From: Ruegeria atlantica
GTDB lineage: Bacteria > Pseudomonadota > Alphaproteobacteria > Rhodobacterales > Rhodobacteraceae
Length of the DNA stretch: 64,000 nt
Reading direction: 5' to 3'
Assembly (NCBI GenBank): GCA_013032095.1
Contig: WQBJ01000009.1
Coordinates: 1 to 64,000, forward strand
Below, one piece after another: positions 4,052 through 14,342 of the stretch. The notes beneath the pieces are model-generated. The model ran no database searches. It was not told the DNA's origin and saw nothing but the letters and a program-made list of their open reading frames with translations. Numbering within the stretch: position 1 is the stretch's first letter; the number at the start of each line of letters is the position of its first letter. Position numbers and translations under genes: made by a program.

Positions 4052-5500
4052 CTAAACGCTCAAGCAGCAGTATTTCAGTTCAAGGTAGTCGTCGATCCCA
4101 TACTTTGAACCCTCACGTCCCAGACCGCTTTCCTTGATCCCGCCAAACGGGGCCACTTCGGTGGAAATGAGGCCAGTGTTGACGCCAACCATTCCGTATT
4201 CGAGCTCTTCCATGAACCGCCAGGCCTGCGACAGATTCTGCGTATAGACATAGGACGCCAGACCAAACTCGGTGTCATTGGCTGCGGCGATCGCCTCGGC
4301 TATGTCCGCAAACCGGAATACCGGGGCCAGAGGGCCAAATGTCTCTTCCCGAGCGACAGCCATATCGGACGTGACACCGGTGATCACCGTCGGTTGGAAA
4401 AACGTCCCGCCCAGTTCATGTGCAGTACCGCCGATCATGACAGAACCACCCTTGGCAACCGCGTCGTCGATATGCTCTCGCACCTTCGTAACTGCGGCTG
4501 GGGTGATAAGCGGCCCGATGACGGACCCGTCTACGAAGCCATCGCCTACTGACAAGGACGCAACAGCAGCGCTCAGCCGGTCGACAAAGGCGTTGTGGAT
4601 GCTGTCCTGCACATAGATGCGATTGGTGCAGACGCAGGTTTGTCCGGCGTTGCGGAATTTCGAGATCATCGCCCCTTCGACCGCCTTGTCCAGATTGGCA
4701 TCGTCGCACACGATGAAGGGCGCGTTACCACCAAGCTCCAATGAGAGCTTTTTGATCTGCGCCGCCCCCTGCTCCATCAGGATTTTGCCGACGCGGGTCG
4801 ATCCGGTGAAGCTGATCTTGCGCATGATCGGGTTCTCGCAAAAGGCTTTGCCGACCCCAACTCCGTCCGTGGACGTAACCACAGAAAACACGCCCGGCGG
4901 GATACCGGCCTCTTCCCCTAGCCGCGCCATGGCAAGCGCCGACAGAGGCGTTTCCGCAGCAGGTTTCACCACCATCGCACAGCCTGCCGCCAGTGCCGGG
5001 GCAACTTTGCGGGCAATCATCGCATTAGGGAAATTCCACGGAGTAATGGCCCCGACAACGCCGACGGGTTGTTTGATGACCATGATACGCTTGTCGCGCT
5101 GATGGCCCGGAATGGTATCGCCATAGACGCGCTTTGCTTCTTCGCCGAACCATTCAACAAAGCTGGCCCCATAGAGGATTTCACCTTTGGCCTCGGCCAG
5201 CGGTTTGCCCATCTCTGCCGTCAGGATCGCACCCAGATCGTCAACATAGGCAACCATAAGGTCAAACCACTTGCGCAGGATTGCCGCACGCTCCTTCCCG
5301 GTACGCCGCGCCCAGTCTTTCTGCGCCTGCTCGGCCGCTTGGATTGCCGCGTGCGCGTCGTCGGTAGAGCAATCGGCTACCCGCGCCAAGAGCGCGCCAG
5401 TCGAAGGGTTCGTTACATCAAAACGGGTCTCGCGCTGAACCCATTCTCCGTTCAGGTACGCGGTGTCGATCAAAAGGTCGGATCGGTTCAAAGGCAGCAT
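4052..5500 (-). CDS. tgnE: Succinate-semialdehyde dehydrogenase (TgnE/GabD-like)
   Basis: This 482-residue protein is an NAD(P)-dependent succinate-semialdehyde dehydrogenase of the GabD family. The N-terminus LIDTAYLNGEW, the ITPWNFPNAMIARK cofactor region, the catalytic Glu255 in LELGGNAP and the catalytic Cys289 in GQTCVC are all present, and the second Cys291 is typical of GabD. It oxidises succinate semialdehyde to succinate. It lies last in the minus-strand operon, after a BCCT carrier and an intrinsic terminator. In the trigonelline pathway of Acinetobacter baylyi the last step is this reaction (TgnE), which fits the context; GABA catabolism is the alternative, but no transaminase is nearby. 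Confidence 0.88.
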   Translation of the reverse strand: MLPLNRSDLLIDTAYLNGEWVQRETRFDVTNPSTGALLARVADCSTDDAHAAIQAAEQAQKDWARRTGKERAAILRKWFDLMVAYVDDLGAILTAEMGKPLAEAKGEILYGASFVEWFGEEAKRVYGDTIPGHQRDKRIMVIKQPVGVVGAITPWNFPNAMIARKVAPALAAGCAMVVKPAAETPLSALAMARLGEEAGIPPGVFSVVTSTDGVGVGKAFCENPIMRKISFTGSTRVGKILMEQGAAQIKKLSLELGGNAPFIVCDDANLDKAVEGAMISKFRNAGQTCVCTNRIYVQDSIHNAFVDRLSAAVASLSVGDGFVDGSVIGPLITPAAVTKVREHIDDAVAKGGSVMIGGTAHELGGTFFQPTVITGVTSDMAVAREETFGPLAPVFRFADIAEAIAAANDTEFGLASYVYTQNLSQAWRFMEELEYGMVGVNTGLISTEVAPFGGIKESGLGREGSKYGIDDYLELKYCCLSV

Positions 5501-5521
5501 GGGTGTCTCCGGTCAGAGTAA

Positions 5522-5549
5522 AAACGGGCGAGACTGATCCCGCCCGTTT
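5522..5549 (-). terminator. Rho-independent terminator after the BCCT gene
   Basis: Read on the minus strand, AAACGGGCG and CGCCCGTTT form a 9-bp stem with a 10-base loop followed by more T residues. It lies between the BCCT gene and the succinate-semialdehyde dehydrogenase gene, so the dehydrogenase is either read through at reduced level or has its own promoter. Confidence 0.75.
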
Positions 5550-5569
5550 GTTGTGGTGTGAGTGGTGTC

Positions 5570-7237
5570 TTAGGCGTGCAGGTCGCCGTCTATTGCGGTG
5601 CCGTCAGGTGCCACCGCAGGGCTCGATGCAGCAGAGCTGTCCTCGACCAGCGATTTGATCACGCCCCAGGCCATCAGAACAACGAGGATCGAGATCGGCA
5701 GCGCCGCCGCAATTGCCGCTGTTTGCAGGGCGGACAGACCACCTGCTATCAACAGAACAGCCGCTACGAGACCCTGCGCTGTGCCCCAGACGATCCGGTG
5801 CAGCTTGGGCGGGTGGGCATTGCCCATGGACAGGATCGTGGTCACGACCAGCGTGCCCGAGTCCGAACTGGTGATGAACCAGGTGGCCAGCAGGAACGTG
5901 GCCAATGCCGAGACAATCCAGGACAGGGTGCCATTGGCCGCCAAAAGCTCGATGGTGCCATAGAGCGTGCCGCCCAGGTTCCAGCCATTGACCATTTCGA
6001 TCAGACCGGCAGTGCCAACACCCTCTGCTGCGTTCAGCTCGATGAACAGCGCATTGCCGCCAAAGATCGAGATCCAGATGAACGCCATCGTGGTGGGAAC
6101 GAACATGGCACCCAACATGAATTCGCGGATTGTGCGACCTTTCGAGATCCGCGCCACGAACATGCCGACAAACGGTGCCCAGCTCAGCCACCAGCCCCAG
6201 TAGAAGATGGTCCAACCACCCTGCCAGGCAACGTCACCCGGCTCGGACGCAGTCCAGAATCCCATCGACCACAGGCCCGTTGCATAGTCGCCTACTGCGT
6301 TCATGAAAAAACCGATCAGCCACTGAGTCGGACCTGCGAACAGAAAGAACAGCACCAGCAGGATCGACAGAATGATGTTCCATTCGGACAGAATCCGGAT
6401 GCCTTTGCCGATACCCGACACGGCGGACAGCGTGGCAATGATCGAGATTCCGATGACCAATACTACCTTCAGTGTGGTGCCCGTGCCGGTGTTGAACAGC
6501 ACGTTCAGACCTTCGGCCATCTGGGTTACGCCCAGACCCATCGAGGTCGCGATACCGAACACCGTGCCGAACACGGCCAGCAGGTCAACCGCGTGACCCG
6601 CCGGGCCATAGATGCGGTCACCCAAGATTGGGTACAACGCCGACCGGAAGGTCAGGGGCAGCTTTTTGCGGAACGCGAAATACCCCAATGCCAGACCGGT
6701 CATGGTGTAGATCGCCCAGCCGTGAAGGCCCCAGTGGAAGTTCGTGACCACAACTGCGTCAACCGCGCGCTGTACGTTCATTTCCGTGTGTCCGGCGGCA
6801 TCCGCGAACGGGTTGTTCGGATAGCCCCAGCCTGCCGCATTGTCGAAATAGAACAGCGGCTCGGCAATGCCGAAGAACAGGATGCCGATCGAGACACCTG
6901 CCGAGAACAACATGGCGAACCACGAGAAGTTGCTGAATTCAGGGCGGCTGTCATCGTCGCCTAGACGGATCGAACCGAACCGGCTGAACATCAGGAACAG
7001 ACAGACAAAGAACAGGATGACGACCGAACTGATGTAGTACCAGCTCAGCGCCCCTTCGACCCACGACCGCACGCCTTTGTAGACGCTGCTGGCGAAGTCG
7101 ACATTGAGAATAGTGAAGAGAACAAAGGCTGCAACCATCGCTTTGGATGCGATGCTCATCCCATTGTGCAGCCCTTTGAATACCCCCTTATCCGAGACCA
7201 GGTGGTCACCATTTTTGGGGGCTGGAGTTCCAGCCAT
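5570..7237 (-). CDS. BCCT-family betaine/choline/carnitine-type transporter
   Basis: This 555-residue membrane protein belongs to the betaine-carnitine-choline transporter family. The start at 7237 (MAGTPAPKNG) is chosen because GGGAGG sits 9 bases upstream; an upstream in-frame start would add 16 residues without a binding site. Family marks are the SAGVSIGILFFGIAEPL segment in TM3 and the FYWGWWLSWAPFVGMFVARI tryptophan-rich TM8 that forms the quaternary-ammonium box. The TM3 motif is GVSIG rather than the GMGIG of Na+-coupled BetP, so coupling is uncertain. Trigonelline is itself a betaine, and the gene sits directly downstream of a trigonelline-type oxygenase operon, so uptake of that compound is the natural inference. 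A strong terminator follows. Confidence 0.9.
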   Translation of the reverse strand: MAGTPAPKNGDHLVSDKGVFKGLHNGMSIASKAMVAAFVLFTILNVDFASSVYKGVRSWVEGALSWYYISSVVILFFVCLFLMFSRFGSIRLGDDDSRPEFSNFSWFAMLFSAGVSIGILFFGIAEPLFYFDNAAGWGYPNNPFADAAGHTEMNVQRAVDAVVVTNFHWGLHGWAIYTMTGLALGYFAFRKKLPLTFRSALYPILGDRIYGPAGHAVDLLAVFGTVFGIATSMGLGVTQMAEGLNVLFNTGTGTTLKVVLVIGISIIATLSAVSGIGKGIRILSEWNIILSILLVLFFLFAGPTQWLIGFFMNAVGDYATGLWSMGFWTASEPGDVAWQGGWTIFYWGWWLSWAPFVGMFVARISKGRTIREFMLGAMFVPTTMAFIWISIFGGNALFIELNAAEGVGTAGLIEMVNGWNLGGTLYGTIELLAANGTLSWIVSALATFLLATWFITSSDSGTLVVTTILSMGNAHPPKLHRIVWGTAQGLVAAVLLIAGGLSALQTAAIAAALPISILVVLMAWGVIKSLVEDSSAASSPAVAPDGTAIDGDLHA

Positions 7238-7303
7238 GTTCGTATTCCTCCCATTGATAGACGAACGTGCCGCGTGTCCTCGCACGCAGCGGGAAAGTTT
7301 GCG

Positions 7304-8767
7304 TCAGCGCATGACGAACGGATCCGGGATCGGATCGTCGCTGGTGCGCAACCAGACTGACTTGATCTTGGTGTAATCCAGCGCTGCCTGCAGACCGCCC
7401 TCACGACCATGGCCGGACAGGCCGTGGCCGCCAAACGGAGCGATGGGGCTGACGGCGCGATAGGTGTTGACCCAGACGATCCCGGCTCGAATGGCGCGGA
7501 TCATGCGATGGGCTCGGGTCAGGTTCTGGGTGAACAGGCCCGAGGCAAGCCCGAATTGGGTGTTGTTCGCGATGGCGATGGCCTCGGCTTCGGTCTCGAA
7601 AGACACGACCGACAGGACTGGACCGAAGAATTCGTTTGTCAGGCTGTCCGCGTCATGCACGTCCGAGCAATCCAGAATGGTCGGCGGGAAGTAGAACCCA
7701 TCGCGATCAATCGGGTGCCCCCCGGACACCAGCTTGGCCCCCTGCGCCACAGACCTATTGATCAGGTCTATGGCGTTGTCCCGCTGACGCAGGGTACAGA
7801 GCGGCCCAACTTCGGTGGCCATGTCATCAGGGGCGCCGACCACAATCGCCCCAGCTTTTGCTTTGAGGCGCGCCAGGAATTCATCCTTGATCGAGGCCTG
7901 AACCACAAGGCGCGATCCAGCTACGCAGCTTTGACCGGTGGCTGCGAAAATCCCTGACACCTGCGCATTTACAGCGCTTTCGAGATCGGCGTCTTCGAAC
8001 ACGATGAATGGAGACTTTCCGCCCAGTTCCAACGAGGTCGAGGCCAGGTTCTCAGCTGAGTTGCGCACGATGTGACGCGCGGTTTCCGGCCCGCCGGTAA
8101 AGGCGACATGAGCGACTTTAGGATGGCTGGTCAGGGTCGCGCCCGTGACCGGCCCGCCGGTAATGACGTTGAACACGCCTTTGGGGAACCCGGCCTGATC
8201 GAAGATGCGGGCAAATTCCAGCATCGGTGCTGGACCCTCTTCCGAGGCTTTCAATACAACGGTACAACCTGCTGCCAGTGCGGGGCCGATTTTCACCGCC
8301 GACAGGAACAGTTGAGAGTTCCAAGGCACCACAGCGGCCACAACACCGATTGGCTCGCGACGCAACCAGACCTCCATGTCCGGTTTGTCAATGGGCAGGT
8401 GGGCACCTTCGATCTTGTCGGCCAGACCAGCATAGTAGCGGTAGTAATCGGCGACATAAGCAATCTGCGCCGACGTCTCACGAATGATCTTGCCGGTATC
8501 GCGAGTTTCCAGCTCGGCCAGACGCGGAGCATTTTCGGAAATCAGGTCTGCCAATCGGGACAGCAACTTTCCACGCGCTGTCGGCGTCATCCCCGCCCAT
8601 TCCGGCGAGAAAAACGCGCGCTCAGCAGCCTCAACAGCCTGATTGACGTCTTCTGCGCTGGCCTCGGGCATCTTTGCCCAGACTGCGCCGGTGGCCGGGT
8701 CCAGACTGTCGAACTGGGTCGCACCATCCGAGAAGGTGCCGTCAATATACTGTTGAAACTGCTGCAT
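7304..8767 (-). CDS. tgnC: Aldehyde dehydrogenase, probable TgnC (MFMB dehydrogenase)
   Basis: This 487-residue protein is a complete NAD(P)-dependent aldehyde dehydrogenase with the cofactor region VVPWNSQLF, catalytic Glu247 in LELGGKSP and nucleophile Cys281 in GQSCVAG. It lies 14 bases downstream of the luciferase-type oxygenase. In the trigonelline pathway of A. baylyi, TgnC is an aldehyde dehydrogenase that oxidises the ring-opened product of TgnAB (a hydroxybutyrolactone in equilibrium with an aldehyde) to N-methylformamidomethylene-succinate. Position and family match that role. A general aldehyde dehydrogenase is the fallback reading. Confidence 0.82.
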   Translation of the reverse strand: MQQFQQYIDGTFSDGATQFDSLDPATGAVWAKMPEASAEDVNQAVEAAERAFFSPEWAGMTPTARGKLLSRLADLISENAPRLAELETRDTGKIIRETSAQIAYVADYYRYYAGLADKIEGAHLPIDKPDMEVWLRREPIGVVAAVVPWNSQLFLSAVKIGPALAAGCTVVLKASEEGPAPMLEFARIFDQAGFPKGVFNVITGGPVTGATLTSHPKVAHVAFTGGPETARHIVRNSAENLASTSLELGGKSPFIVFEDADLESAVNAQVSGIFAATGQSCVAGSRLVVQASIKDEFLARLKAKAGAIVVGAPDDMATEVGPLCTLRQRDNAIDLINRSVAQGAKLVSGGHPIDRDGFYFPPTILDCSDVHDADSLTNEFFGPVLSVVSFETEAEAIAIANNTQFGLASGLFTQNLTRAHRMIRAIRAGIVWVNTYRAVSPIAPFGGHGLSGHGREGGLQAALDYTKIKSVWLRTSDDPIPDPFVMR

Positions 8768-8781
8768 TTTAGGGCACCCCT

Positions 8782-9819
8782 TTACTGAAACGCTGGCATG
8801 ACATCTTTGATGAAGCGCTCAAGCGAGGCTTTCTTCCGCTCGAACGGCATGCTGGAGTCGATCCAGAACGAATACTCGTCATAGCCAAGCTCCTCATAGC
8901 CGCGCAGCCGATCGATGACGGTATCGACGGTGCCGATGACCAGGTCGCGTTCCATATTCTCGGGGGTGTAGAACGGATGCGCGGCGATATCTTCGTCGCT
9001 CAGCGGGTCGATCAGGCCCTGCGAGATGTCGCGCTTGTTCATGAACCAGGCACCGAAGTAGTTGTAGAACCGGTTCAGCTCGACCGCGGCCTGTTTCACA
9101 TCGGCGTCGTCCGATGCCACATAGGTATGCATCAGCAGCATGATCTTTGGTCGCGATACATCCGGGAATTTTTTGCAGGCGTCGTTGAACTTGAACATCA
9201 GGCTAGAGACTTCGTCATCGCCGTTCCACAACGGCGTCACCTGTACGTTGCAGCCGTTCGAAACGGCAAATTCGTGGCTGTTGGGATCACGCGCTGCAAC
9301 CCACATCGGTGGGCCGTTTTCCTGCACCGGTTGCGGGGCCGAAGTGGTTTTAGGGAATTTGTGGAATTCACCATCATGCTCATAGTCGCCTTCCCACAGT
9401 CCTTTCACTGCCGGGATCAGTTCGCGCATACGCTGCCCAGCTTCCCAGGCGTCCATGCCGGGCATCAGGCGCTCGTACTCAAAGCTATACGCACCGCGCG
9501 CGATGCCCAGGTCCAGACGGCCCTCGGTAATGATATCGGTCATTGCCGCTTCGCCCGCCAGACGGATCGGATGCCAGAACGGCGCGATCACAGTGCCAGT
9601 GCCCAGACGCACGTTCTTGGTGTGGCGTGCCACGTCGATCAGGTTCAGGAAAGGGTTCGGCGCGATGGTAAAGTTCATCCCGTGGTGTTCACCAGTCCAA
9701 ACCGCGTGCATACCGCCGTCATCAGCGATTTTGCACAACTGGATGAACTCGTCATACAGTTGCTTCTGGTCCTGATCGTCCGAGATCCGTTCCATATGCG
9801 CAAAGAGTGAGAATTTCAT
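8782..9819 (-). CDS. tgnB: Luciferase-like flavin monooxygenase, probable TgnB oxygenase
   Basis: This 345-residue protein is a class C two-component flavin monooxygenase of the bacterial luciferase-like family. Typical blocks are MKFSLFAHMERI at the N-terminus, HAVWTGEHHGMNFTIAPNP near residues 40-58, and NVRLGTGTVIAPFWHPIRLA. It takes reduced flavin from a separate reductase, and the flavin reductase gene is 6 bases upstream. In trigonelline degradation TgnB opens the N-methylpyridinium ring by dioxygenation. The same family also includes alkane, alkanesulfonate and pyridine oxygenases, so the substrate call rests on the operon content (reductase, aldehyde dehydrogenase, amide hydrolase, SSADH, BCCT carrier). 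Confidence 0.82.
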   Translation of the reverse strand: MKFSLFAHMERISDDQDQKQLYDEFIQLCKIADDGGMHAVWTGEHHGMNFTIAPNPFLNLIDVARHTKNVRLGTGTVIAPFWHPIRLAGEAAMTDIITEGRLDLGIARGAYSFEYERLMPGMDAWEAGQRMRELIPAVKGLWEGDYEHDGEFHKFPKTTSAPQPVQENGPPMWVAARDPNSHEFAVSNGCNVQVTPLWNGDDEVSSLMFKFNDACKKFPDVSRPKIMLLMHTYVASDDADVKQAAVELNRFYNYFGAWFMNKRDISQGLIDPLSDEDIAAHPFYTPENMERDLVIGTVDTVIDRLRGYEELGYDEYSFWIDSSMPFERKKASLERFIKDVMPAFQ

Positions 9820-9825
9820 GTCAAC

Positions 9826-10761
9826 TTAACTCCCAGCGGTGAGCGGTTTGACCTCGCCACTCACCTCGTTGCCGTAATACACCCCGAAATTCCCCATGTG
9901 GCTTTCGGCCGCGAACCGTTCCAGCATCGTACAGATGGCCGGATCGGCTACATCCATCAAAGTGGATTCGGTGATTTCAGTAAAAACACCGTTTGCCGGT
10001 TCGCCTTCGTCAGCCTGGCACAGAAATGAGATGTGTTGATGTTTGCGCGCTTCATCCTGAAAAACAGAGTAGATAAATCCCGGTTCTGCCGTCACACCGC
10101 TTACGCTGATCAGATTTGCCAGCGCGGCATTCGCACCGCCTGAGACGTCGTCGGTCTTTGGAATGGTCAGGTGACCACCGCCATCGTCCTGCAGCAGAAC
10201 CTTGCCGTCCCGTGCGATAAGAGCCGAGACCACCGTATCCGAGCGTTTGCTGAGCGCCTTGGCCTCAGCCGCCGGAGTAACATAGGCGCCGCGGGCATAG
10301 CCCAGACCTGGCGCGATGTCCTGATTGAAAGCTTTGACTTCACCAATCAGGATCAGGTGATCGCCTGCATCCACGGTCTTGTGCATGGCGCAATCGAACC
10401 ACGCAGACACGTCATCCAGAATGGGTGAGCCATGCGGGCCGGGTTGCCACTCAACCATTGCGAAACGGTCTTCGACCGGGCGGGCGAAGGTGTTGGACAC
10501 CTCGATCTGTGCCTCGGACAGGATATTGATGGCGAATTTCGATGTCTTGGCGAAGGTCTCGTAATTGCTGGAGGTATTCGCCAGGCAAACCAGAACCAAA
10601 GGCGGATCCAGCGACACCGAGGTGAAAGAGTTTGCGGTAAATCCCAGCGGGTTGCCCGCGTCGTCATGTGACGTCACAACCGTTACCCCGGTCATGAATG
10701 AGCCAAAGGCGCTGCGCAGGGCGCGTGGGTTTTGTAGTGTTGTTGGGTCGAATTCGATCAT
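9826..10761 (-). CDS. tgnA: FMN reductase partner, probable TgnA, with extra C-terminal domain
   Basis: The first ~165 of 311 residues form a HpaC-like flavin reductase domain: RSAFGSFMTGVTVVTS, GFTANSFTSVSLDPPLVLVCL, and the GDHLILIGEVKAF strand that ends the split barrel. It would reduce FMN with NADH for the adjacent luciferase-like oxygenase. The remaining ~145 residues (from about ALIARDGKVLLQDDGGG) are not part of typical short reductases (about 160-190 residues); the start resembles a Nudix-like strand pattern, but no Nudix box is visible. The gene overlaps the hydrolase gene by 4 bases (ATGA), implying translational coupling. Confidence 0.82.
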   Translation of the reverse strand: MIEFDPTTLQNPRALRSAFGSFMTGVTVVTSHDDAGNPLGFTANSFTSVSLDPPLVLVCLANTSSNYETFAKTSKFAINILSEAQIEVSNTFARPVEDRFAMVEWQPGPHGSPILDDVSAWFDCAMHKTVDAGDHLILIGEVKAFNQDIAPGLGYARGAYVTPAAEAKALSKRSDTVVSALIARDGKVLLQDDGGGHLTIPKTDDVSGGANAALANLISVSGVTAEPGFIYSVFQDEARKHQHISFLCQADEGEPANGVFTEITESTLMDVADPAICTMLERFAAESHMGNFGVYYGNEVSGEVKPLTAGS

Positions 10762-11585
10762 GTCAGTTCACCCTGTTCAGATGGCGTGTGCAACCAGTCC
10801 GTCAGCGCGGCATTGACCACGTTCGGAGCCGTCAGGTTCACCATATGCCTGTGGTCTTCGATAATAATAGCGTGTCCGCAGGGGGCGGCGTCGGCCATCG
10901 CTTGCGACATGGCTGGGGTCGAGTTCGGATCGTCATCTCCGGTCAACGCCAGCAACGGGCATCTGATATTGCTGAACCCGTCTGAATATAGCGCATCGCC
11001 GCGTGCAAAGGCCCCGTAGGCAGTAGCATAGCCGTCAATGTTCACCTCGGACAGCCAGTTGGCGACCTCATCGCGTGCGGCTTGTTCGATCGGCGTATCG
11101 CCAAACCAGCGACGCAGAGGCGTTTCCAGATCGAAAGACCCGGTTCCGATCAGTTCGGCCCGCGCGATGACGGATCTGCTTGCGGCCTCGTCCCGGCAGA
11201 ACACGCCGTTCAAAAGGGCCACGCGAGCAACCCGCTCCGGGTGGCACACGGTAAACCCGCCCGCGATAAGCGCACCCATGGAATGACCAACCAAACTGAC
11301 CCGTCCGAGCTTGAGTACATCCAGCACAGCCAGCAGCCAGTCTAGAAACACCGGCAGATTTGATCCCATGGGGATACGGTCACTGCCGCCGTGCCCCGGC
11401 ATGTCCAGTGCGATGACGTGGTGCGTTTTCGCCAGTTCCTCGATCTGTGGTCGCCAAGCCGCAGATTGCATCCCGACACCGTGGATCAGAACCACCGGTG
11501 CAGCTTTCCCCGAATGGGAAAGTCCGGCTTCGCGGTATGCGACCTGACCGAACGGCTCAGACAGCTGCAGGGTTGTCGACGTCAT
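10758..11585 (-). CDS. tgnD: Alpha/beta hydrolase, probable TgnD amide hydrolase
   Basis: This 275-residue alpha/beta hydrolase starts at 11585 (MTSTTLQLSE), where AAGGA lies upstream; a longer frame reaching 11663 lacks support. It shows the oxyanion-hole motif LIHGVGMQ, nucleophile Ser102 in VGHSMGAL, an acid in TGDDDP near residue 217 and His247 in EDHRHMVNL. In the trigonelline pathway TgnD hydrolyses N-methylformamidomethylene-succinate to succinate semialdehyde, methylamine, formate and carbon dioxide; the related vitamin B6 enzyme is also an alpha/beta hydrolase of about this size. The gene overlaps its upstream neighbour by 29 bases and its downstream neighbour by 4. Confidence 0.78.
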   Translation of the reverse strand: MTSTTLQLSEPFGQVAYREAGLSHSGKAAPVVLIHGVGMQSAAWRPQIEELAKTHHVIALDMPGHGGSDRIPMGSNLPVFLDWLLAVLDVLKLGRVSLVGHSMGALIAGGFTVCHPERVARVALLNGVFCRDEAASRSVIARAELIGTGSFDLETPLRRWFGDTPIEQAARDEVANWLSEVNIDGYATAYGAFARGDALYSDGFSNIRCPLLALTGDDDPNSTPAMSQAMADAAPCGHAIIIEDHRHMVNLTAPNVVNAALTDWLHTPSEQGELT

Positions 11586-12159
11586 GACCCAGTTCCTTAA
11601 GATCCTGATACCGATCACCGATACGGTGATGCGGACGACCACCGATGGATGCGCCAAGAGCAATCATGATCTCATCCGGTGCAGGTGCGTCTGCCACTTG
11701 CAGCTGAATGGTCAGGTAGTGGCTGCGACGTCCGCCATCATTCTTGTCCATCAGCGGGATTTGCATCGAGGCGTTTGCCGGGCCGCGCGTGTTGGTGAAG
11801 GCCAGATAGGACTTCGCGCCCACTGCCTCACGGTAGAAATTACCAAAGCGCAGGGTATGGATCAGGGCCGAGCCATGTTCGACCTCGCCGTTCACACCGA
11901 CAATTGCGGCCTTGCCGTAGCCTTCGACCTTGTCGCCGCCGCCAGTGGCCTCGAGCACCATGTCTGTCAGCATGGACCCCAAGCCTGGCGCGCAATCGTG
12001 GATCGCGGGCTTCAGGTCTTCGACAAAGCCTTGCCCTGCCCACGGATTCCGGATCACCGCGACCGCAGCAATCATCTTCAGCGGAGTCTCAGCGGCCTTA
12101 CCCCCTTCGATCAGGGTGTTTTCAACATGCAGCAGTGTTTTGCGGATTTCGGCGGGCAT
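11557..12159 (-). CDS. DUF1185 / amino-acid-synthesis (AA_synth) family protein
   Basis: This 200-residue protein belongs to PF06684. The start MPAEIRKTLL at 12159 has AAGGA just upstream. Family blocks are AVIRNPWAGQGFVEDL, GYGKAAIVGVNGEVEHGSALIH and RGPANASMQIPLMDKNDGGR. Structures of members from Bordetella and Ruegeria pomeroyi show a chorismate-mutase-like trimeric fold, and their function is unassigned. Here it is the first gene of the trigonelline-type operon, nearest the promoter, overlapping the hydrolase gene by 29 bases. That suggests a catalytic or isomerising step in the same pathway, possibly on a ring-opened intermediate, but this is inference. Confidence 0.85.
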   Translation of the reverse strand: MPAEIRKTLLHVENTLIEGGKAAETPLKMIAAVAVIRNPWAGQGFVEDLKPAIHDCAPGLGSMLTDMVLEATGGGDKVEGYGKAAIVGVNGEVEHGSALIHTLRFGNFYREAVGAKSYLAFTNTRGPANASMQIPLMDKNDGGRRSHYLTIQLQVADAPAPDEIMIALGASIGGRPHHRIGDRYQDLKELGHDVDNPAAV

Positions 12160-12191
12160 GATTTTTTCCTTGCGATTCGATGGATCGGAAT

Positions 12192-12203
12192 ATGGTATAC
12201 CAT
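12192..12203. promoter_or_regulatory. GntR/FCD-type operator in divergent promoter
   Basis: ATGGTATACCAT is a perfect 12-base palindrome between the DUF1185 gene and the divergent GntR gene. The core GGTATACC is the kind of site bound by FadR-subfamily (FCD) GntR regulators. Two further CATACC half-sites follow at about 12204-12209 and 12220-12226, so binding may extend over ~35 bases. Its place between the two start codons fits control of both transcription units. Confidence 0.65.
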
Positions 12204-12261
12204 CATACCGCATGTCAATCATACCTTGTGGGAATTTTCCCATTCCGATAGCTTGCCGCGC

Positions 12262-12954
12262 ATGAGTGCACCGAAACTAACAAAAATAGATCACCCGCCC
12301 GCGACCTTGCGCGACATGGTTCAGGAACGTATGCGAGAGGCAATCATCGAAGGGCTTTTCCAGCCAGGGCAACGACTTGTAGAACGTCCACTCTGTGATC
12401 AGCTGGGCGTCAGCAGAACCGTCATCCGTGAGACGATCCGGTATCTTGAGGCCGAAGGGCTGGTCGAAATTCTTCCCGGACGTGGCCCGATCGTGGCGGT
12501 CATGAGCTGGGAAGATGCCCGCCAGATCTACGATATCCGTCGCATGTTAGAGACGGCGGCGGCGGAGAACTGCGCCCGCAATATCACTCCGGATCGGGTG
12601 CGTGGTCTGCGCAAAGCACTGGAAAACCTCAGACGCGGTTTTTCCGACAAAACGCCTGGCGCCTTGTTTCGCGCGACATCCGACTTCTATTCAGAGATTT
12701 TCGATGGCGCGGGCCACTACATCGCATGGGACGTTGTTCAGCGACTGAATGGCCGGATCAGCCGCCTGAGAATGATGACACTGTCGTCAGCTGACCGCGA
12801 ACGCCCCGGCATTACCTATATGGAAGACATCTGTGATGCGATCACCTCCGGTGACCCTGCCGCCGCCCGGGCCGCGGTTGAACGCCACCTGAGTGACACC
12901 ACAGCAATTGCCGAACGCCTGTTCGCCTCAGAAGAAAGCGCAAAAGATGACTGA
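12262..12954 (+). CDS. GntR-family (FCD domain) regulator
   Basis: This 230-residue regulator starts at 12262 (MSAPKLTKIDH). The N-terminal winged helix has LRDMVQERMREAIIEGLFQPG, then LVERPLCDQLGVSRTVIRE, typical of the FadR subfamily. The C-terminal FCD helical domain follows (DIRRMLETAAAENCARN ... AAARAAVERHL), with the metal/ligand-binding His residues in the last helix pair. It is divergent from the trigonelline-type operon with a palindromic operator between them, so it is the likely pathway regulator, responding to trigonelline or an intermediate. Its stop overlaps the next gene by 8 bases. Confidence 0.9.
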   Translation: MSAPKLTKIDHPPATLRDMVQERMREAIIEGLFQPGQRLVERPLCDQLGVSRTVIRETIRYLEAEGLVEILPGRGPIVAVMSWEDARQIYDIRRMLETAAAENCARNITPDRVRGLRKALENLRRGFSDKTPGALFRATSDFYSEIFDGAGHYIAWDVVQRLNGRISRLRMMTLSSADRERPGITYMEDICDAITSGDPAAARAAVERHLSDTTAIAERLFASEESAKDD

Positions 12955-13240
12955 GCCACGTAAAGGGTACTGGATCGCAAACGTCACTGTTACCAACCCC
13001 GACGCATACCAGGGGTATCAGGCTCTTGCGCCCGAGGCGTTCAGCAAATTCGGAGCCCGGTTTCTGGCGCGCGGCGAAGCGGAAACCCTCGAAGGCCAAA
13101 ACTGGCAGCGGCGTGTCATTATTGAGTTTGATAGCATTGAGGCTGCCCGTGCCTGCTACGCCTCAGATGAATATCGCGCCGCCCGCGCGAAACGCGAAGC
13201 CGCCTGTACGGCAGATATCGCATTGATCGAAGGGCTTTGA
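12947..13240 (+). CDS. DUF1330 family small protein
   Basis: This 97-residue protein starts at 12947 (MTEPRKGYWIANVTV), overlapping the GntR stop by 8 bases. The pattern YWIANVTVTNPDAYQGYQ, FGARFLARGG-like strand and RRVIIEFDSIEAARACYAS is DUF1330, a dimeric ferredoxin-like alpha/beta barrel. Members often accompany catabolic operons but have no settled function. Co-transcription with the regulator is almost certain from the overlap. It might be a small-molecule-binding or isomerase-like accessory; no catalytic residue can be assigned. Confidence 0.85.
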   Translation: MTEPRKGYWIANVTVTNPDAYQGYQALAPEAFSKFGARFLARGEAETLEGQNWQRRVIIEFDSIEAARACYASDEYRAARAKREAACTADIALIEGL

Positions 13241-13472
13241 GTGGAACCCTTTCATGTACGGTGTAGTCGTTTTGGAAATCGCTCTCGCTGCAAACGGTAT
13301 CTACTGAATACCTTTCTCTGCGAATGCGGAGGACCATTCCACGTACGTCTTGTCGCTTGCGAAGTGCGGATTTTTCAAATCTTCCTGAATAGAGCTGTTG
13401 CATTTTTGCGGGTGGTTCATGCTCTTGGCCCGGACCATATTTGGGGCAAGTCGTATATCTTCAGGAGCATAC

Positions 13473-14342
13473 ATGAGCACCAAGTATTTTGCACCGCACG
13501 GAGGGCATCCCGGGCAGGAACAACTATTAACTGATCGGGCTGTTTTTACTGACGCTTATGCCGTGATTCCTAAGGGCACAATGCGGGATATTGTGACCAG
13601 CTTTCTGCCATTTTGGGAAGGCACACGCCTGTGGGTCATTTCACGTCCGCTGAGTGGGTTCGCCGAAACATTTTCGCAGTATATTATGGAAGTTCAACCC
13701 GGCGGTGGTTCCGATCGACCCGAAACCGACCCCGAAGCCGAGGGGGTTTTGTTCGTCGTCGGAGGCACAGCGACCCTGAGTGTTCAGGGCGAGACCCATG
13801 AACTGACCCCGGGCGGCTATGCTTATCTGCCTCCTGCAAGTGAATGGACCTTACACAACCGTGCCGAGGAAACACTGAGGTTCCACTGGATTCGGAAAGC
13901 TTACGAAGCGGTCGAAGGGCTGGATAAGCCTGATGTTCTGATCCTCAACGAAAACGACATCGAACCAACGCCCATGGCGGGGACAGATGGCAAATGGGCC
14001 ACGACACGGTTTGTGGACCCAAGCGATTTGCGTCACGACATGCATGTAACCATAGTGACGTTCGAGCCAGGCGCCGTCATCCCATTTCTGGAAACCCATG
14101 TGATGGAACACGGTCTGTATGTTCTGGAAGGAAAAGCAGTTTACAGGTTGAACAATGACTGGGTCGAAGTGGAGGCCGGCGATTACATGTGGCTACGCGC
14201 ATTCTGCCCGCAGGCATGCTACGCGGGTGGACCGGGCAAGTTTCGCTATCTGCTCTACAAGGATGTAAACCGGCACATGGCACTGCGACCGGGACCTGCC
14301 GCATATCCGCAAAATCAACGCCTTAGGACCGCGGCAGAGTAA
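13473..14342 (+). CDS. allE: (S)-ureidoglycine aminohydrolase
   Basis: This 289-residue bicupin starts at 13473 (MSTKYFAPHGGHP) with AGGAG 7 bases upstream. It has two cupin barrels; the second carries the metal-binding pattern ETHVMEHGLYVLEGKAVY with His and Glu ligands, as in the Mn-dependent AllE/YlbA family. It converts (S)-ureidoglycine to (S)-ureidoglycolate and ammonia, keeping stereochemistry for the next enzyme, ureidoglycolate lyase. It is convergent with bhcR (20-base overlap of the ends) and separated from the other ureide genes by the bhc operon. Only one gene of the allantoin route, allantoate amidohydrolase, is not seen in the window. Confidence 0.88.
   Translation: MSTKYFAPHGGHPGQEQLLTDRAVFTDAYAVIPKGTMRDIVTSFLPFWEGTRLWVISRPLSGFAETFSQYIMEVQPGGGSDRPETDPEAEGVLFVVGGTATLSVQGETHELTPGGYAYLPPASEWTLHNRAEETLRFHWIRKAYEAVEGLDKPDVLILNENDIEPTPMAGTDGKWATTRFVDPSDLRHDMHVTIVTFEPGAVIPFLETHVMEHGLYVLEGKAVYRLNNDWVEVEAGDYMWLRAFCPQACYAGGPGKFRYLLYKDVNRHMALRPGPAAYPQNQRLRTAAE

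Follow-up and report, generated by a model that had tools for sequence, protein, structure and literature searches.

The window analyzed here is a 64,000-nucleotide stretch of the Ruegeria atlantica contig WQBJ01000009.1, and it carries a group of genes that very probably forms a complete tgn operon, with its own divergent GntR regulator, for the degradation of trigonelline, a betaine derived from nicotinic acid. The catabolic operon extends over positions 4052-12159 on the minus strand in the order tgnF-tgnD-tgnA-tgnB-tgnC-bcct-tgnE. Its first gene (11557-12159) encodes a TgnF-type protein of 200 amino acids (aa) from the AA_synth/DUF1185 family (PF06684, 235 bits). It is followed by genes for a TgnD-type alpha/beta hydrolase (10758-11585, 275 aa; PF00561 (Abhydrolase_1), 86 bits, and PF12697), the flavin reductase TgnA (9826-10761, 311 aa; PF01613 (Flavin_Reduct), 148 bits), the luciferase-like flavin-dependent oxygenase TgnB (8782-9819, 345 aa; PF00296 (Bac_luciferase), 183 bits), and the aldehyde dehydrogenase TgnC (7304-8767, 487 aa; PF00171, 540 bits). 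The last two genes encode a BCCT family transporter, which we propose as the trigonelline importer (5570-7237, 555 aa; PF02028, 556 bits; motif GVSIG), and a TgnE-type succinate-semialdehyde dehydrogenase (SSADH; 4052-5500, 482 aa; PF00171, 561 bits, and TIGR01780, 703.5 bits over a cut-off of 646). Because the genes overlap at the first two junctions (by 29 and 4 bases) or lie close at the others (gaps of 6 to 69 bases), we regard them as organized in an operon.

On the plus strand, diverging from the first operon gene, lies a gene for a 230-aa GntR/FCD regulator (12262-12954), with an N-terminal GntR domain (PF00392, 62 bits) and an FCD domain (PF07729, 88.5 bits). Its start is most likely at 12262 and not at 11584, as the longer open reading frame (11584-12954) passes antisense through the AA_synth gene. 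Between the divergent genes is the palindrome ATGGTATACCAT (12192-12203), a proposed GntR operator of which the inner TGGTATACCA is conserved upstream of the AA_synth gene. Every gene that the initial annotation had named between 4052 and 12954 is present at its coordinates with a strong Pfam match, and the set that it had called complete does hold TgnA, TgnB and TgnC together with TgnD-, TgnE- and TgnF-type genes. Its gene list was nevertheless incomplete, since it overlooked the AA_synth gene, which lies beneath the regulator's long antisense frame, and a DUF1330 gene that lies 3' of the regulator.

The tgn operon of Acinetobacter baylyi, and the reaction scheme that we follow below, were reportedly set out by Perchat et al. 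in 2018, from which we take the letters TgnD and TgnE for the hydrolase and SSADH of the window. We compared the window with the corresponding locus of the A. baylyi type strain DSM 14961, as the initial annotation had suggested, and found a counterpart for every core gene. The seven counterparts share 47-74% identity and stand in identical order: the divergent GntR regulator (49% over 223 aa), AA_synth (66% over 196 aa), the hydrolase in the equivalent position (53% over 267 aa), TgnA (47% over 295 aa), TgnB (74% over 344 aa), TgnC (72% over 488 aa) and, later in the locus, SSADH (55% over 481 aa). The features of a tgn operon, namely a TgnA and TgnB monooxygenase, a TgnC aldehyde dehydrogenase, TgnD-, TgnE- and TgnF-type genes and the gene order with GntR, are all found in the window. 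Both loci also have a DUF1330 gene after the regulator. They differ in that the window has a BCCT gene where A. baylyi has an NCS1/cytosine-permease-type gene, and in that SSADH immediately follows the transporter in the window, unlike in A. baylyi. No match in the window was found for the carboxymuconolactone-decarboxylase-like gene that the Acinetobacter loci carry (best E value 0.67). A search of a plasmid collection with TgnB matched 1016 records, the best 40 of them full-length at 72-87% identity. One of these 40, a plasmid of Acinetobacter sp. PK01, carries a locus syntenic with the window and annotated tgnA-tgnB-tgnC, to which the window genes are 48% (tgnA), 74% (tgnB) and 71% (tgnC) identical.

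To place the oxygenase, we built a tree of 72 oxygenases by a quick method, which left 21 open forks and gave two long-branch warnings. In this tree the window TgnB clusters with the TgnB proteins of A. baylyi and PK01 in a clade of 46 rows (SH-aLRT 97), separate from a second clade (clade II) of relatives at 35-43% identity. A luciferase-like cluster acting on sulfonates or sulfones is an extremely improbable reading of the gene set: TgnB shares a superfamily with SsuD and SfnG, yet scores far below the curated cut-offs for both (SsuD, TIGR03565, 22.5 of 518 bits; SfnG, TIGR04021, 46.4 of 383 bits), and we rejected this reading on these scores. A second luciferase-like oxygenase of the same genome, on contig C253, is 27% identical to TgnB and is encoded beside flavin reductase and alpha/beta hydrolase genes.

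A further alternative is that the tgn-like enzymes degrade another pyridine (homarine, N-methylpyridinium, a nicotinate analogue or pyridine itself) and that trigonelline is not their natural substrate. The 23 clade II sets, which come from the same bacterial family, lend this some weight, since all of them have a TgnC-like aldehyde dehydrogenase gene nearby and 21 have an AA_synth gene, so that the chemistry seems to have been re-used. Homarine can also be the more abundant compound in marine particles, with corrected means in the transition zone of 0.6 nM for homarine and 0.14 nM for trigonelline, while in the gyre both averaged 0.07 nM, as given in Heal et al. 2021 and its correction (PMC10134881). 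On the other hand, TgnB and TgnC of the window lie outside clade II and share 74% and 72% identity with their A. baylyi counterparts, and the excerpted text of Heal et al. 2021 considers TgnAB unlikely to act on homarine on steric grounds, an argument that the correction leaves standing. We therefore consider another pyridine substrate improbable. Gene orders vary among the clade II loci; in one from the genus of the window (L088, 12364-14469), CoA-transferase family III and flavin reductase domains are joined in one frame of 702 aa.

We then surveyed related loci for the genes beside TgnB. The 99 loci of the window's group (group I) comprised the best 80 of 580 confirmed relatives and 19 from a search of Rhodobacteraceae family genomes; removal of five duplicates left 94 distinct TgnB proteins, and removal of 14 loci with short flanks left 80 with at least 5 kb upstream and at least 7 kb downstream. 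The loci were picked by similarity to the window, hence the set leans to Rhodobacterales. AA_synth was found in 78 of the 80 loci, the hydrolase in 76, TgnA in 78 and TgnC in 79, with SSADH nearby in 25. AA_synth, hydrolase, TgnA, TgnC and GntR all stand beside TgnB in 71 of the 80, a conservation of gene order that excludes a chance association; of the nine loci missing the full core, at least two (L126 and L170) fail through the distance limits used. Among 198 Rhodobacteraceae genomes, the window's own included, 168 gave a TgnB match at an E value of 0.001 or better. In 31, again counting the window's own, the match had 63-100% identity, and the next matches follow after a gap at 35-43%. Thirty of the 197 other family genomes carry TgnB at 63-85% identity, of which 19 belong to group I (69-85%) and 11 to a nested subclade (subclade Ib, 63-69%), so this type of operon is not rare. 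Ruegeria haliotis B1Z28 and Thalassovita mediterranea CECT 5383 are two named relatives with a similar operon.

Two of the related loci resemble the window in different ways. A plasmid locus of Thioclava sp. FTW29 has the same core, a BCCT gene after tgnC whose product is 72% identical to that of the window and, as in the window, a DUF1330 gene after the regulator; unlike the window, it has no SSADH within the stretch shown. Rhizobium sp. K102 and related rhizobia have the same catabolic core and SSADH as the window, but ABC importer genes where the window has BCCT, and in the K102-type locus the GntR gene does not adjoin AA_synth in divergent position as it does in the window. Trigonelline catabolism in rhizobia is said to have been known since the work of Goldmann et al. 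in 1991.

The regulator gene is divergent in 74 of the 80 related loci, points in the same direction in three and was not found in three; under narrower distance limits it was found in 75. As A. baylyi has a 49%-identical GntR/FCD regulator in the same place and also divergent, the expectation of the initial annotation that regulation would differ here did not hold, although its identification of the operon as one for trigonelline agrees with the 47-74% identities, the gene order and the TgnB clade. We surveyed the palindrome in 92 distinct loci with a placeable AA_synth gene, leaving out L053 and L125, which have no AA_synth in their stretch. TGGTATACCA lies upstream of the estimated AA_synth start in 78 of the 92, at a distance of 38-60 bases (75 in one), and the core GGTATACC is upstream of the gene in 80. 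As a yardstick, when the same loci were divided into 10,345 tiles of 160 bases, 81 tiles contained the exact 10-mer, a count that includes the sites themselves. If one mismatch is allowed, 88 of the 92 have a site, an inexact count that has no control. A. baylyi and A. soli have ATTGTATACCAT in the corresponding position. The simplest reading is that the GntR protein would be a local repressor acting at the palindrome. The 12-mer ATGGTATACCAT at 12192-12203 is the only one in the 6.14-Mb genome, and a wider regulon is unsupported by this search, which covered exact sites genome-wide and not inexact ones.

The transporter of the locus does differ between lineages. A recognized importer is encoded at 36 of the 80 loci, as ABC (15), NCS1 (11) or BCCT (10), and none at the other 44, although importers were scored only if they resembled a reference set, so that "none" may hide other types. 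The NCS1 loci come from Moraxellales (five), Burkholderiales (five) and Lysobacterales (one), the ABC loci from Hyphomicrobiales (11) and Rhodobacterales (three), with one unassigned to an order, and the BCCT loci from Rhodobacterales (seven) and Hyphomicrobiales (one, Pseudovibrio), with two unassigned. One catabolic core is thus paired with different importers across lineages. The initial annotation was right to expect different transport relative to Acinetobacter, as a BCCT stands here, an NCS1 type there and an ABC importer mostly in Hyphomicrobiales.

The window transporter has the PF02028 domain of the BCCT family and resembles over its whole length BetP and the solved BCCTs for choline (9vbp) and trimethylamine (8zw8). 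The likeness extends to its tryptophan-rich stretch YWGWWLSW, which aligns with YWAWWISW of BetP. A BCCT gene follows tgnC at a short distance in 12 of the 94 distinct group I loci, nine of which also have SSADH nearby, as well as in the tgn loci of Thioclava and the window. The count of tgn-linked BCCTs excludes partial BCCTs cut off by the locus end in four Leisingera loci (L105, L106, L107 and L147), which lie about 9.5 kb downstream and are 62-69% identical to the reference BCCTs. A tree of 48 BCCT sequences, made by a quick method, left 16 open forks and gave long-branch warnings that affect the row for Sulfitobacter. In it, 13 of the 14 tgn-linked BCCTs, that of the window included, form one clade (support 99). 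The remaining one, from Sulfitobacter sp. 20_GPM-1509m, occupies the same slot, and because it is only 36% identical and falls outside the 13-member clade, it suggests a second capture of a BCCT by the tgn operon in that lineage.

All 13 members of the clade have serine as the third residue of the motif (GVSIG, SVSIG or SISIG), which we take to be part of the substrate and sodium site of transmembrane segment 3 (TM3). Glycine stands at this place in the 34 comparison BCCTs, in the Sulfitobacter BCCT and in two further BCCTs of the window's genome that were not in the tree. The GVSIG of the window differs in the same way from GMGIG of BetP and GIGID of 9vbp. Serine as an exclusive mark of tgn-linked BCCTs is weakened by another solved BCCT, 8ybq, which reads GISIT.

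From these patterns we propose that the tgn-linked serine-motif BCCTs may be dedicated importers of pyridinium betaines, captured from different branches of the BCCT family on two or more occasions, a proposal for and against which we find the arguments about evenly balanced. It is also conceivable, if rather unlikely, that the catabolic genes are a tgn operon and the BCCT an importer of osmolytes such as glycine betaine or carnitine that merely happens to be located there. The nearest BCCT paralog in the same genome (64-65% identity) adjoins a carnitine 3-dehydrogenase gene that scores above its cut-off, and the lack of a recognized transporter at 44 of the 80 loci indicates that linkage is not required. 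An accidental position fits poorly with the recurrence of the BCCT after tgnC, with the single clade and distinct residue of 13 of these proteins, with the second, distant BCCT that fills the same slot in Sulfitobacter, and with the NCS1 or ABC importers that take this place in other lineages. A literature search retrieved no title or abstract on a tgn operon in Rhodobacterales or on trigonelline transport by BCCT proteins, within long result lists that were covered in part. In the two listed papers containing both "trigonelline" and "BCCT" that were checked, trigonelline is mentioned solely as part of a reference title and of a table of osmolytes, and excerpts of PMC9151330, PMC11354265 and PMC6581673 added nothing on transport.

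Besides the carnitine-linked paralog, several points weigh against assigning the whole locus to trigonelline. The Acinetobacter reference was strain DSM 14961 and not the Tgn records of strain ADP1. The reductase, hydrolase, SSADH and regulator are just 47-55% identical to their A. baylyi counterparts, so a drift in substrate is possible. Subclade Ib (11 rows, unstarred support 81-87) is nested in the TgnB tree nearer to the window protein than A. baylyi is, and its partner genes are more divergent, TgnC and the hydrolase mostly so. Finally, the report of Heal et al. 2021 that Ruegeria pomeroyi grew better on trigonelline than on homarine, the single account that we found of growth on trigonelline by a marine roseobacter, cannot serve as support because the correction (PMC10134881) deletes both the statement and the growth experiment; we dropped it. 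Trigonelline degradation is still the most probable reading of the locus. Subclade Ib has features of its own: a GntR match was near TgnB in only two of the 11 loci and the palindrome core in none, some of the contigs being short. In one of these loci (L068), AA_synth, hydrolase and TgnC are close to those of the window (88, 65 and 81% identity) with no TgnA or TgnB in between; a TgnA/TgnB pair is located about 4.6 kb off and is more divergent.

We labeled the AA_synth gene TgnF-type because the excerpted text of PMC7913881 places TgnF in the DUF1185 family. There, TgnF of A. baylyi ADP1 is described as stimulating the TgnE-dependent oxidation of succinate semialdehyde, a role that fits AA_synth as the first gene of a tgn operon. 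We had considered the AA_synth protein as a new, unassigned component and dropped this idea, as TgnF of the same family was already described. Two relatives with solved structures, SPO0826 (2qtp) and BB2672 (3byq), belong to the same Pfam family as the window protein over nearly its whole length; the excerpts of PMC2954203 do not establish their functions. The DUF1330 gene (12947-13240, plus strand; PF07045, 110 bits) has its ATG at 12947. Its product is 61% identical over 93 aa to the DUF1330 protein of the Thioclava tgn locus, and relatives are encoded nearby in 55 of the 80 related loci. Beyond it (13398-14342) lie a gene for an (S)-ureidoglycine aminohydrolase that scores above its NCBIfam cut-offs and then, on the opposite strand, an IclR regulator gene, which probably belong to a separate region for ureide use.

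Based on sequence similarity, we propose the following pathway. The BCCT carrier would bring in trigonelline, and TgnA would provide reduced flavin to TgnB, which would open the N-methylpyridinium ring oxidatively. TgnC would then oxidize the resulting (N-methylformamido)methylene-hydroxybutyrolactone to 2-((N-methylformamido)methylene)succinate, which TgnD would hydrolyze to succinate semialdehyde, methylamine, formate and CO2, and TgnE, aided by TgnF, would yield succinate. The GntR protein may act at the intergenic palindrome and repress transcription until the substrate or an intermediate binds. The methylamine set free could feed into a methylamine-type gene cluster on another contig. Contig C236 encodes a type III glutamine synthetase-like protein above the TIGR03105 cut-off and a DmmA-type protein above its own, along with genes that, below cut-off, resemble the glutamate synthase large subunit, an ammonium transporter and a C-terminal Tdm/GcvT. 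We take this group to resemble the methylamine-use clusters of roseobacters, and for this reason methylamine from trigonelline could be used.

Trigonelline, a nitrogen-containing betaine, was measured in marine particles according to excerpts of Heal et al. 2021. With the tgn pathway and its GntR control known before, the advance is modest; what is new is the recurrent, putative BCCT importer that replaces the Acinetobacter and rhizobial types. For roseobacter-type bacteria, the locus supplies a defined set of genes, a candidate transporter and a regulatory site through which trigonelline could be used, and it points to sister operons, such as the clade II sets. If the proposed role of the importer is correct, the substrates of BCCT proteins would extend beyond aliphatic betaines, carnitine and choline to an aromatic (pyridinium) betaine, and in the same family the clade II and Ib sets may open the rings of other N-heterocycles by parallel routes.

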